Origin: Hymenobacter jeollabukensis
Lineage (GTDB): Bacteria; Bacteroidota; Bacteroidia; Cytophagales; Hymenobacteraceae
Length of the DNA stretch: 64,000 nucleotides
Assembly: GCF_005771675.1 (NCBI RefSeq)
Contig: NZ_VAJM01000005.1
Span: forward strand, 62,001 to 126,000
Direction: 5' to 3'
Position numbers and translations under genes: made by a program. Below the pieces are notes generated by a model, which was not told where the DNA came from, searched no databases, and saw only the letters and a list, made by a program, of their open reading frames with translations. Positions 6,536 through 61,154 of the stretch are shown in pieces (position 1 is the stretch's first letter; the number at the start of each line of letters is the position of its first letter).

Positions 6536-7078
6536 CTATTCGGCGTCGAAAACCGACTTTTCCAGCACCAGCAACGTCAGCGGCTGCTGGGCCTGGCCGT
6601 GGCGGCCTTCGGCGGGCAGCTGCTCGGTGCGGCCGGTGGGCCGGTAGCCGCGGCGGGCGTACCAGGCCAGCAGCTCGGGGCGGGCTTCGAGCACCGTCAT
6701 GCGCACCACCGGGCGGCGGTGCTGGCGGGCGTAGGCTTCGGCGGCCGAGAGCAGCAGCTGGCCGAGGCCCGTGCCCTGCCGGTCGGGCGCGACGGTGAGC
6801 AGGCCCAGGTACAGGGCCTCGGGCTGGGGGTGGAGGAACACGCAGCCGATGAGCTGGCCCGTGGCGGCGTGGGCGAGGAGCAGGGCGGCGTGGTCGGTGG
6901 CGTGCTGGCTGAGCAGCTCGCGCAGGGCAGCCTCGTCGGTGCGGGGGCCGCCGAGCAGGTGGCCCTCGGCCGTCCAGCCCACCGGGCCGCCTTCGCCGCG
7001 GTAGGCCCAGTTGGCCAGGGCGGCCACCGCGGGTAGATCGGCCGGGGTAGCGGGGCGCAGGTGCAAATCAGGAATCAT
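6536..7078 (-). CDS. GNAT-family N-acetyltransferase
   Basis: A 180-residue acetyl-CoA-dependent transferase. The N-terminus (MIPDLHLRPATPADLPAV) is the standard GNAT start and the acetyl-CoA loop is at LTVAPDRQGTGLGQLLL, with a late motif LAWYARRGYRPTGR. The substrate cannot be told. The frame is open 54 codons further upstream, but the -7 element at 7083-7090 lies inside that stretch, so the ATG at 7078 is the start. That places the start codon only four bases after the promoter box, so the mRNA may be leaderless. Confidence 0.88.
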   Translation of the reverse strand: MIPDLHLRPATPADLPAVAALANWAYRGEGGPVGWTAEGHLLGGPRTDEAALRELLSQHATDHAALLLAHAATGQLIGCVFLHPQPEALYLGLLTVAPDRQGTGLGQLLLSAAEAYARQHRRPVVRMTVLEARPELLAWYARRGYRPTGRTEQLPAEGRHGQAQQPLTLLVLEKSVFDAE

Positions 7079-27193: not shown

Positions 27194-28072
27194 ATGAAGA
27201 CCATCCTCGTTCCCCTCGACCTGACGGCCGCCGCCGAGCCCACCGTGGTCTACGCCAACAAACTGGCCGTGCGCCTCGGGGCCGAAGTCGTGCTGCTGTA
27301 CTGCCACCACGGCGCCCTCAGCCACGAAGACACGGCCGCCTACCAGCAGCGCCTGCTGGTGCTGGCCGAGCGTCTGCGCTACGTGCAGCTCGTGCGCCAG
27401 GACGGCCGCCGCATCCGCTACCGCGTGGCCGTGCGCGCCGGCTGTCTGCACGACCACGTGCAGAACGTTATCGACGAGTACGGGGCCGGGCTGCTGGTCA
27501 TGGGCCTGGAGCACGTCGACTGCGGGGAGGCGGCCATCGGCGGCAACCACGCGGCCCGCATTGCGGGGTTGGCCCGCTGCCCGGTGCTGGTGGTGCCGCC
27601 CGGCGCCCGCACCCTGCCGCAGCGCGCCGCCTTCCTGGCTGATTTCGGTCACCTCGACGCCGCCACCCTGGCCCCGCTCGCCCCGCTGCTGCGGGAGCTG
27701 AAGCCCCAGCTGCAGCTGGTCCACTTCTACCAGCAGCTCGATCTGTCCGAGCTCATCCGCGTCAAGCGCGGCATGCAGCTGATTCAGCGCGCGCTGACGG
27801 ACATTCCGCTGCGCACCCGCCTCGTGCTCGACGACGACCCGCTGGAGGGCATCGGCGAGTTCTGCGAGGCCATGCACGCGCAGCTGCTCATCTTCGCGCC
27901 CACCGACGCGGTGCTGCTCGACCGGTTTTTCGACGTGTGCTACACCAAGACCCAGGCCTACCACACCCGCATTCCGCTGCTGGTGCTGCCCCAGCCCGCC
28001 CCCGCCGGGGGCGTGTGCTGTGAGCACTGCGCGCAGCAGCTGACGGCTACGCCCGCCCAAGCGGTAGTGTAA
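27194..28072 (+). CDS. Universal stress protein, two UspA domains
   Basis: A 292-residue cytoplasmic protein. The first domain (about 1-145) has MKTILVPLDLTAAAEPTV and ends with GLEHVDCGEAAIGGNHAARI and PVLVVPPGA, the ATP-binding-type Usp signature region. The second (about 150-285) starts AAFLADFGHLDAATL. A C-terminal CCEHCAQQ segment is unusual. In this position it probably belongs to the oxygen-limitation regulon, as Usp genes often do in Fnr/RegA-type clusters. The ATG at 27194 follows directly after the repeat 27142-27187; the upstream open frame reads through that repeat. Confidence 0.9.
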   Translation: MKTILVPLDLTAAAEPTVVYANKLAVRLGAEVVLLYCHHGALSHEDTAAYQQRLLVLAERLRYVQLVRQDGRRIRYRVAVRAGCLHDHVQNVIDEYGAGLLVMGLEHVDCGEAAIGGNHAARIAGLARCPVLVVPPGARTLPQRAAFLADFGHLDAATLAPLAPLLRELKPQLQLVHFYQQLDLSELIRVKRGMQLIQRALTDIPLRTRLVLDDDPLEGIGEFCEAMHAQLLIFAPTDAVLLDRFFDVCYTKTQAYHTRIPLLVLPQPAPAGGVCCEHCAQQLTATPAQAVV

Positions 28073-28127
28073 GAAGCTGTTTTAAGGGGCAGAACGTCTG
28101 TGCCTGATCAACCGGCCAACAGCCCGC

Positions 28128-28362
28128 GCGAGTACTCACGACGGTCTTCCGCATCTGCCAAAAGCCGTCGTGAGTACTCATGAGGCATTGCGCCAGATAC
28201 GTGCGCCCATCCCGCCTACTCACGGAGCATATCGGCAAGCGTTGAAGCCCTTCGTGAGTAAACGCGAGGCATTCCGGCAACTGACAAAGCCCCTCATGAG
28301 TACTCGTGAGGCGTTACTGCATAGTAACAAAGGCCTTCGCGAGTACTCGCGAAGGCCTTTGT
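28128..28362. repeat. 42-bp tandem array built on GAGTACTC palindromes
   Basis: Six units whose GAGTACTC (or degenerate) cores start at 28130, 28172, about 28214, 28256, 28298 and 28341: four exact 42-base steps and one of 43. Typical units continue GTGAGTACTCATGAGGCATT. The plus strand reads as 14-residue repeats of the type STHEALRQ-x-x-KP; the minus strand also reads as repeats with STH(E/D)G. The 429-base gap 28073-28501 otherwise holds the hairpin 28327-28362 and the small repeat 28437-28474. Confidence 0.85.
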
Positions 28363-28376
28363 CGTCTGGCGGTTAG
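28170..28376 (+). other. Possible 14-residue-repeat mini-protein inside the tandem array
   Basis: A GTG-started frame of 68 codons to the TAG. Successive 14-residue blocks are STHEALRQIRAPI, PTHGAYRQALKPF, SKREAFRQLTKPL and STREALLHSNKGL, with first residue M, V or P. The frame is also open upstream to 28086 without ATG. The last unit is shifted by one base, which breaks the repeat register. Coding is uncertain; the repeats may act at the DNA or RNA level. Confidence 0.25.
28327..28362. terminator. 36-bp perfect palindrome closing the array
   Basis: ACAAAGGCCTTCGCGAGT followed by its exact complement, centred at 28344/28345. It has no long T run, so transcription termination is only one possibility. 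Confidence 0.5.
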
Positions 28377-28436
28377 CGACCTGAGCCGGAGGGGGTGGCG
28401 GTCCGGCATAGGCAGGCCTCCTTGCAGAAAAAGGCC

Positions 28437-28474
28437 GTCATGCTTCATCTGGCGTCCGCCTGTCGAAGCATGAC
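28437..28474. repeat. Short inverted repeat GTCATGCTTC/GAAGCATGAC
   Basis: 10-bp arms (28437-28446 and 28465-28474), a mini copy of the GTCAT...ATGAC element family, 27 bases beyond the stop of the minus-strand regulator. Confidence 0.5.
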
Positions 28475-28501
28475 GTTCTAAACCTCCCAGCCAGGGGCCG
28501 C

Positions 28502-29528
<1,027 letters not shown>

Positions 29529-29551
<23 letters not shown>

Positions 29552-60143: not shown

Positions 60144-61154
60144 CTATTTACCGGTTTCCGAATTTGTACCCAGGATCTGAAACAGCTCGTCGAGCTTGGG
60201 CGTCAGAATGATTTCGGTGCGGCGGTTCAGGGACTTGTTCTGGGGCGAGTCGTTTTGCGCGACGGGTACGTACTGCGAGCGGCCCGAGGCCGTCACGCGC
60301 TCGGGCTGCACCCCGCCGGTGGTAAGCAGGCGGGCAATTTCGGTGGCGCGCAGGGCCGACAGGTCCCAGTTGTCCTGCATGCCAGCCGTGCCCTTCAGAA
60401 TGGGCACGTTGTCGGTGTGGCCTTCCACCACCACGTTCACGTCGGGCTGCTCCTTGAGCACGGTAGCCAGCTTGCCCAGTGCCTCCTGGCCCTTAGGGTC
60501 CACCTTGGTCGAGCCCGACTTAAAGAGCAGCTGCTCCGACAGAGACACGTACACCTTGCCGTCCTTCACCTTCACCTGCAGCTCGTTGGACTTGAAGGCC
60601 AGCAGGGCGTTGCTGACTTTCGAGCGCAGCGCGTTTACGGCCGCGTCCTTCTCGGCCAGGGCCTTTTCCAGCTCGGCCAGGCGCTGTTCGCGCGTCTTCA
60701 CGTCGGCCGAGAGCTTGTCGATTTCGGTGCGGCTCTTGTTCAGGTTGGCCGACAGCTCGCCCAGCTCGGCTTCGCGGCGGGCCAGGTCCTGGGCCACTTT
60801 CTGGTAGTCGGCCGATTTGTTGGCCAGCACCTTCTCGTTGTTCTTGATGAGCTTTTCGTAGGTGTCGCTCAGCTCGCGGTACAGCGTCTGGGTGCGGCGC
60901 AGCACGTTGCCGGTCTGCGTCGAGTCATTCACGAGGCGCTTGTTTTCCAGGCGCAGCTCACCCAGCTGGCTGGTGGCCTTCTGCAGCTCGGCCACGGCTT
61001 CGCGGGCCTGCCGCTCGGCGGTGGTTTTGGCCTGCTCGGTGGCGGCCTGGCGGGCCCGCAGGTCGTCGTATTTCTTGGCGGTGACGCAGCCCGGCAGGCT
61101 GAAGCTGCCGGCGGCCAAGGCGGCCAGCAGGAGAGAGGAGGTGTACTTCTTCAC
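60144..61154 (-). CDS. OmpA/MotB-family peptidoglycan-binding lipoprotein with coiled coil
   Basis: A 336-residue lipoprotein. Signal sequence with lipobox LPGC (Cys23). A long coiled coil from about 25 to 190 is rich in Glu, Lys, Ala and Leu heptads. The OmpA-like domain (about 205-320) has LLFKSGSTKVDPKGQEAL, VVVEGHTDNVP and NKSLNRRTEIILTP. It probably links the outer membrane to peptidoglycan. The GTG at 61154 (KKYTSSLLLAALAAG follows) is chosen because it begins the signal peptide; an ATG at 61238 would add 28 non-signal residues. Confidence 0.9.
   Translation of the reverse strand: MKKYTSSLLLAALAAGSFSLPGCVTAKKYDDLRARQAATEQAKTTAERQAREAVAELQKATSQLGELRLENKRLVNDSTQTGNVLRRTQTLYRELSDTYEKLIKNNEKVLANKSADYQKVAQDLARREAELGELSANLNKSRTEIDKLSADVKTREQRLAELEKALAEKDAAVNALRSKVSNALLAFKSNELQVKVKDGKVYVSLSEQLLFKSGSTKVDPKGQEALGKLATVLKEQPDVNVVVEGHTDNVPILKGTAGMQDNWDLSALRATEIARLLTTGGVQPERVTASGRSQYVPVAQNDSPQNKSLNRRTEIILTPKLDELFQILGTNSETGK

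Follow-up and report, generated by a model that had tools for sequence, protein, structure and literature searches.

Between two converging genes in the window (the whole stretch of 64,000 nucleotides of Hymenobacter jeollabukensis analyzed here) lies an array of six near-palindromic units (28112-28366). The left neighbor is a plus-strand universal stress protein (Usp) gene (open reading frame [ORF] 27194-28072; Pfam PF00582, E 2.6e-13, residues from 27197), whose start was placed at a conserved MKTILVPLDL; the right neighbor is a minus-strand ORF (28502-29551) for a response-regulator/cNMP-binding/Crp-HTH regulator (Pfam PF00072, PF00027, and PF13545). The first-pass annotation had given all six units the same core, which is exact in unit 1 (28113-28154; GAGTACTC at 28130), unit 2 (28155-28196; 28172), unit 5 (28281-28322; 28298), and unit 6 (28324-28365; 28341, 43 bp past unit 5). 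Unit 4 (28239-28280) has a degenerate core, GAGTAAAC, at 28256, and unit 3 (28197-28238) a hybrid core, GCCTACTC, at 28214, the left half of which resembles the CCGCC-TA cores of another array of this genome (on contig C2, below) and the right half GAG-TACTC. The steps of 42, 42, 42, 42, and 43 bp between cores and a perfect closing palindrome of 36 bp (28327-28362, within unit 6) were found as annotated; the array is thus real, with two of its cores overstated.

Self-similarity of the array at lag 42 reached z 9.0 (150-base window), above every maximum over lags 12 to 130 when the intergenic interval was shuffled 500 times by mononucleotide (maxima averaging 3.4, with 5.1 the largest). Across the window, 10-mers resembling GAGTACTC (two mismatches allowed) were not in excess (12 found, 10.4 expected); what is not due to chance is the regular spacing, not the count of such 10-mers. 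Two other repeats were seen in the window. An unrelated inverted repeat, GTCATGCTTC...GAAGCATGAC (28436-28475), lies between the array and the regulator gene and looks like a dispersed Hymenobacter palindrome, because similar long hairpins occur at the msrA locus of genomes G069, G093, and G111. A weak repeat with a 105-bp lag (60561-60815) was flagged as lying inside an ORF.

Folded as RNA from either strand, the terminal palindrome gives a stem of 16 to 17 pairs capped by a GUAC loop (plus strand, -32.6 kcal/mol and z -6.7 versus shuffles; minus strand, z -7.5), and the whole array is likewise more stable than shuffles on its two strands (z -8.5 and -7.7). Singly, units 2 and 5 folded modestly better than shuffles (z -1.9 and -2.8) and units 1, 3, and 4 no better (z 0.5, 0.3, and -0.1); the stable G+C-rich hairpin of an intrinsic terminator is therefore formed by the terminal palindrome and not by units 1, 3, and 4. 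A consensus scan for a T run past the palindrome stem returned 0 sites, the tail being just TTTGT. A hairpin model was evaluated on 30 aligned units, the same units from which its structure was derived: 69.0% of stem cells were paired (32 to 46% in slid versions), the covariation score was 0.311 (0.208 in shuffles; 0/500 as high), and 50 cells had changed on both sides (34.7 in shuffles; 1/500). Two of the five covariation measures were not clearly above shuffles (pairs changed on both sides, 10 versus 9.7; further pair types, 29 versus 26.2). The end hairpin is likely a shared 3'-end structure. No known Rfam family matched the window array at threshold; there were three subthreshold matches (best, sodF sRNA, 29.8 bits against a cutoff of 46), and those to sodF sRNA, which cover the terminal palindrome on both strands (28281-28382), probably reflect mere hairpin shape.

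Arrays of the same unit occur twice more in the genome, at C22:431708-431962 and at C2:219501-219755 (cores, CCGCCTAGGCGG; terminal palindrome, GAGTACTC), making three among the best 150 of 1511 candidates scored. Mixed cores, with halves joined at the central TA, are found as GCC-TACTC in the window array and GAGTA-GGC in the C22 array. Hymenobacter edaphi (G002) carries orthologues of the window and C22 arrays, plus a third array. Over the ten internal units of these two orthologous pairs, identity was 139/160 (0.87) within 8 bases of the core center and 182/260 (0.70) outside (95/140 in arms and 87/120 in spacers), a difference with p 5.5e-5 (each pair by itself, 0.02 and 0.002). Identity to the orthologue was 0.94 for the window terminal palindrome and 0.92 for the other, and the flanking coding stretches were 0.92 and 0.97 identical across the two pairs. 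The palindromic cores, above all the end palindrome, thus change more slowly than the remainder of the array, which could stem from quasi-palindrome correction or conversion rather than from selection.

In the H. edaphi orthologue of the window array, lag 43 was best in 5/8 overlapping blocks, versus 1/9 in the window array. Because that copy has mostly 43-bp steps, the period lock is loose, or modal, and tolerates about one base. Compared with that of the window array, the H. edaphi terminal palindrome is also extended on both sides. In G006 and G005 this converging gene pair lacks an array and, judged by eye, seems to have a single hairpin in its place. A separate inverted repeat, TGTAGAGGCGC...GCGTCTCTACA, lies between usp and the array in H. 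edaphi (L026, approximately 6620-6720) and is missing from the window genome.

Arrays at one locus were compared across species at three further positions. The first lies between two genes whose motifs suggest msrA and a 3-hydroxyacyl-CoA-dehydrogenase-like gene; 30 loci from 90 matching genomes were examined there, and the end of the upstream gene was located by motif in 23. Strong 42-bp arrays (top z 7.0 to 10.8) were found in four genomes, with top lag 42 in G117, G016, and G001 and 84 in G077, and with cores of CCTAGGCRAGGCGAC (G117), GCTTCGAGAAGC (G016), GGTCAAGGCGAC type (G077), and GTCGAGTAGTCGAC (G001). Lag 42 was also the top lag, weakly (z 3.2), in G105 and G085, and in 17 of the 23 genomes the top lag was other than 42 (z 3.6 or less). 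At the second position (contig C24 of the window genome, L160), the main cores are of the GCCGCCGTTCGCGGCAG kind in H. jeollabukensis and GTCGAAATTTTCGAC in H. edaphi, again at 42 bp (z 12.2), and distal CCGAATgATTCGG units are common to both. At the third (L161), the cores are CTTGTCGTGACAAG in H. jeollabukensis, G005 carries a different 42-bp array (z 13.4), the flanks are only approximately 73 bp apart in H. edaphi, which has no array, and none was seen in G006 or G001. Weaker matches of array DNA at other loci (G002 C36:32034, 73%; C2:997 of the window genome, 71%) indicate that some arrays share sequence across loci. At one locus, then, arrays are present or absent, or have different cores, among related species, and one locus can carry different cores with the same 42-bp step.

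Searched with a covariance model built from 30 units, 19/120 genomes of the family had matches at E <= 0.001 under stricter filters. Nineteen model loci were inspected: seven had measured arrays (those of L107 and L108 being weak), a further array may be present at L113, and the others had single hairpins, several of them terminator-like after a stop codon, or nothing clear. Among 16 measured arrays, 12 had their strongest period at 42, two at 84 followed by 42, and two at 85/43 (L034 and the H. edaphi orthologue of the window array); seven of these arrays (L076, L088, and L107 to L111) had been found without a spacing condition and most others by a 42- to 43-bp pattern. A scan reaching beyond the family, of one genome per species (84,980 species), found 43 stretches with two GAGTACTC cores 42 to 43 bp apart, and since these were selected by spacing they are no test of it. 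Clear 21- or 42-bp arrays among them came from Bacteroidales, Spartobacteria, Paractinoplanes, and others, with 41 to 42 bp in Tannerellaceae. Two loci (L040:3931-4581, uncultured Bacteroidetes; L054:1051-1612, a Spartobacteria metagenome-assembled genome) have 21-bp arrays in which GAGTACTC recurs around middles that vary, and that of L040 is bounded by an inverted repeat.

For an estimate of period free of the unit, a lag scan blind to sequence and period (periods 12 to 130; z >= 6.5, outside long GC3-biased ORFs by ORF heuristics) was run on 1.96 Mb of four related genomes, in 98 stretches of 20 kb: 760 kb of the window genome and 400 kb each of G016, G077, and G001. It returned 35 tandem arrays outside coding-biased ORFs, and 19/35 had a lag of 21, 42, or 84 (8/13 in the window genome, 3/12 in G016, 7/8 in G077, and 1/2 in G001), one of the 19 being foreseeable, as stretch L190 held an already known covariance-model site. 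The other 16 comprised five simple repeats (lags 14 to 18), four stretches of one CRISPR-like array (65/130), four hits in ORFs on a second look (51, 99, 102, and 102), and lags of 43, 93, and 54; the hits at 93 and 54 likewise lay in ORFs, of 238 and 217 amino acids, without codon bias. With simple, CRISPR-like, and protein repeats set aside, the share at multiples of 21 was 19/22-23. With L164 (lag 51) counted as non-coding, 19/23 has P 1.6e-21 under uniform choice and 1.7e-12 among multiples of three only, values that treat related arrays as independent, which they are not. The count also hinges on the ORF filter, by which six more hits at multiples of 21 were flagged as coding; three of these (L254, L176, and L179) look intergenic and were included in the neighbor and spectrum analyses. 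At a laxer threshold of 5.5, 24/55 arrays were at multiples of 21. Two other genera of the family (G009 and G010; 200 kb each) gave no non-coding hit at any threshold tried, a weak control given that G001 yielded just one in 400 kb. Other repeats met in these stretches were the CRISPR-like array with a 65-bp period (L179:5161-9155, on G016 C1) and heptamer satellites of GTTGCCA (L158:17661-17934) and GCTTGGT (L175:6831-7134) with inverted copies nearby.

Averaged over 25 arrays picked for having such lags (22 census arrays, L254, L176, and L179 among them, plus three already known), the spectrum peaked at 21, 42, 63, 84, 105, and 126, with shoulders of at most 1.0 one base off. Ten were of the 42 type, with inverted-match scores of 5.7 to 8.8 (uncalibrated), and 15 of the 21 type, some with and some without such scores; dyads 21 bp apart in the palindromic arrays follow arithmetically from the 42-bp period and are not independent evidence. 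Palindromic 42-bp arrays and other 21-bp arrays are linked by period alone. Flanking genes (by ORF heuristics) converged on 9 of 26 arrays, were co-directional around 11, and diverged from 6, so a 3'-end role cannot cover the class. The intergenic arrays of Hymenobacter-type genomes vary in sequence by locus, with periods mostly at multiples of 21 bp. The first-pass remark that 42 bp is four helical turns fits this regularity, and the window array falls within the proposed 21-bp-phased class, at 42 bp with one 43-bp step (mostly 43 in its H. edaphi orthologue). No description of 21- or 42-bp intergenic arrays in Hymenobacter was found in the literature covered, from which most subscription journals and bioRxiv were absent.

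The usual explanation for arrays of extragenic palindromes is a single sequence that is mobile or bound by a protein. In the present set, spacing is retained and sequence is not, even at one locus across species, so a single binding protein or a single mobile element cannot explain the set. We favor, with somewhat better than even confidence, the reading that the six units form a BIME-like, non-coding tandem array of extragenic palindromes, grown by slippage, with an end hairpin that is likely shared and a spacing near whole helical turns. Units would multiply and homogenize by slippage or unequal recombination between hairpin-forming repeats, as suggested by the dominance of multiunit lags (84/85) in L111, L088, and L034. 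Despite its weak T run, the end palindrome is a candidate RNA 3'-end hairpin shared by the converging genes, and the remaining units may be redundant hairpins or putative binding sites on one helix face. Spacings that leave whole helical turns would be favored if something reads the face of the helix and not its letters; candidates are nucleoid proteins, topoisomerases, and the machinery of duplication. Static curvature as the selected trait was rejected: it exceeded dinucleotide shuffles at z>3 in only 3/19 arrays (window, z -1.3), and against column-permuted arrays of equal period it reached at most z 1.7 (wedge-model prediction).

A broader proposal is offered tentatively, as one that may well fail: that Hymenobacter carries about ten non-coding tandem arrays per Mb, free in sequence and quantized in period at 21 bp, or exactly two turns of B-DNA, so that the process that makes or keeps them would read helix phase and not sequence. 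If true, this would be a sequence-independent chromosome element or the product of a duplication machine with a two-turn ruler. Should the 21-bp rule hold in complete genomes, it would point to a Hymenobacter protein or process that reads helix geometry and would allow a direct and simple test of whether helical phase constrains the origin or survival of bacterial satellite DNA. Taken alone, the array is a modest finding; the rule about periods, though surprising, is based on parts of four genomes and on ORF heuristics.

The strongest competitor, itself unlikely, is a non-adaptive satellite, in which a gene-end hairpin was duplicated by replication slippage, quasi-palindrome template switching made its palindromes perfect, and the common period was inherited or set by duplication, all without function. 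It would account for the multiunit lags in the same three arrays, for the array-free converging genes of G006 and G005, for the empty L161 locus of H. edaphi, and for the longer terminal palindrome of that species. The conservation of cores and terminal palindrome above the remainder in both orthologous pairs argues against it, as does the concentration of 19/23 census arrays at multiples of 21, where a neutral period should drift, yet the shift of H. edaphi to 43 weakens this second objection.

Binding by a protein, as at a plasmid centromere with sopC-type 43-bp repeats or as at operators arrayed for a dimeric regulator (the neighboring Crp-like protein, for example), is improbable. Dyad cores fall on one helical face every 42 bp, are conserved, and adjoin a regulator gene, as such binding would have it, but cores differ by locus and even by species at one locus, so that no single sequence-reading protein fits the whole set, and the other arrays with listed neighbors adjoin other genes.

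A 14-residue repeat protein encoded on one or both strands, which the first-pass annotation had raised, without settling on any single reading, in calling both frames open, is scarcely credible, and the changes between species indicate that the window array is probably non-coding. One plus frame is indeed open throughout 28113-28366 (84 codons), but the best minus frame has only 67 codons. The orthologous array of H. edaphi (L026:6810-7066) has a different frame fully open (85 codons), on the minus strand. Each array thus has one fully open frame, which speaks for coding, and the two lie on opposite strands, which speaks against it. ORFs of 60 to 80 amino acids are plentiful on both strands in this region, and with a unit-length period divisible by three a frame open in one unit stays open in every unit; open frames are cheap in a 14-codon repeat, and those of the window and H. 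edaphi are taken as chance. Alignment of the H. edaphi array with the window array required three insertions, two of 1 bp and a third of 3 bp; the window plus frame meets two stops there, is shifted twice, and is not kept across species. The 54 changes in 252 aligned bases were spread evenly over codon positions (20, 18, and 16 of 84), the signature of codon-biased substitution thus being absent; neither window-array product matched Pfam, and the array contains a 43-bp step. The expectation that related genomes would keep the repeat register therefore held for the 42/43-bp spacing and failed for the reading frames. Among units, a codon-phase mismatch test gave 0/25 below p 0.05, with seven coding controls equally without signal, and a chi-square on codon phase (9/25 at nominal p<0.05) was set aside, as it ignores recurring columns.

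Among known systems, CRISPR arrays are likewise regular, with partly palindromic repeats, but CRISPR was excluded for the window array, which has no unique spacers, the entire unit being repeat. Partition sites of the sopC type are plasmid-borne tandem repeats of approximately 43 bp with a short inverted repeat, one sequence and one binding protein, whereas the arrays here occur at many loci with unrelated sequences. Intrinsic (bidirectional) terminators of Hymenobacter are closer in one respect, as several arrays have, on their gene side, an ordinary terminator-like AAAGCCC..GGGCTTTT hairpin after a stop codon, but a terminator is usually a single hairpin, whereas here several imperfect ones stand at a fixed step and the window palindrome has no T run. 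BIMEs are presented in PMC2817692 as extragenic palindromes with regular spacing in arrays, a REP family being given there as one sequence in >100 copies per genome, and PMC3733652 places REPs mainly between unidirectional or convergent genes. The window array, also made of small extragenic palindromes in regular array, works like a BIME and lacks BIME copy number, tag, and RAYT features: its core is in few copies (three arrays among the candidates scored, as noted above), no constant GTAG or CGTC foot-tag columns were seen in 60 aligned units (some misplaced), and no RAYT link was seen. One RAYT-like Y1 transposase gene was found in the genome (C3:154920; approximately 4.7 to 5.7 kb in L073, G000 C3:150000-160000), flanked by a REP-like pair, GGTACTACGACT..AGTCGTAGTACC. 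A RAYT-mobilized REP/BIME element, to which that gene and the short, regularly arrayed palindromes might point, is very improbable and was rejected because the palindrome pair flanking the gene differs (by eye) from the window unit, the low copy number and missing tag telling the same way. A REP family is one sequence in many copies; here the sequence varies by locus, and it is the period that is mostly kept.
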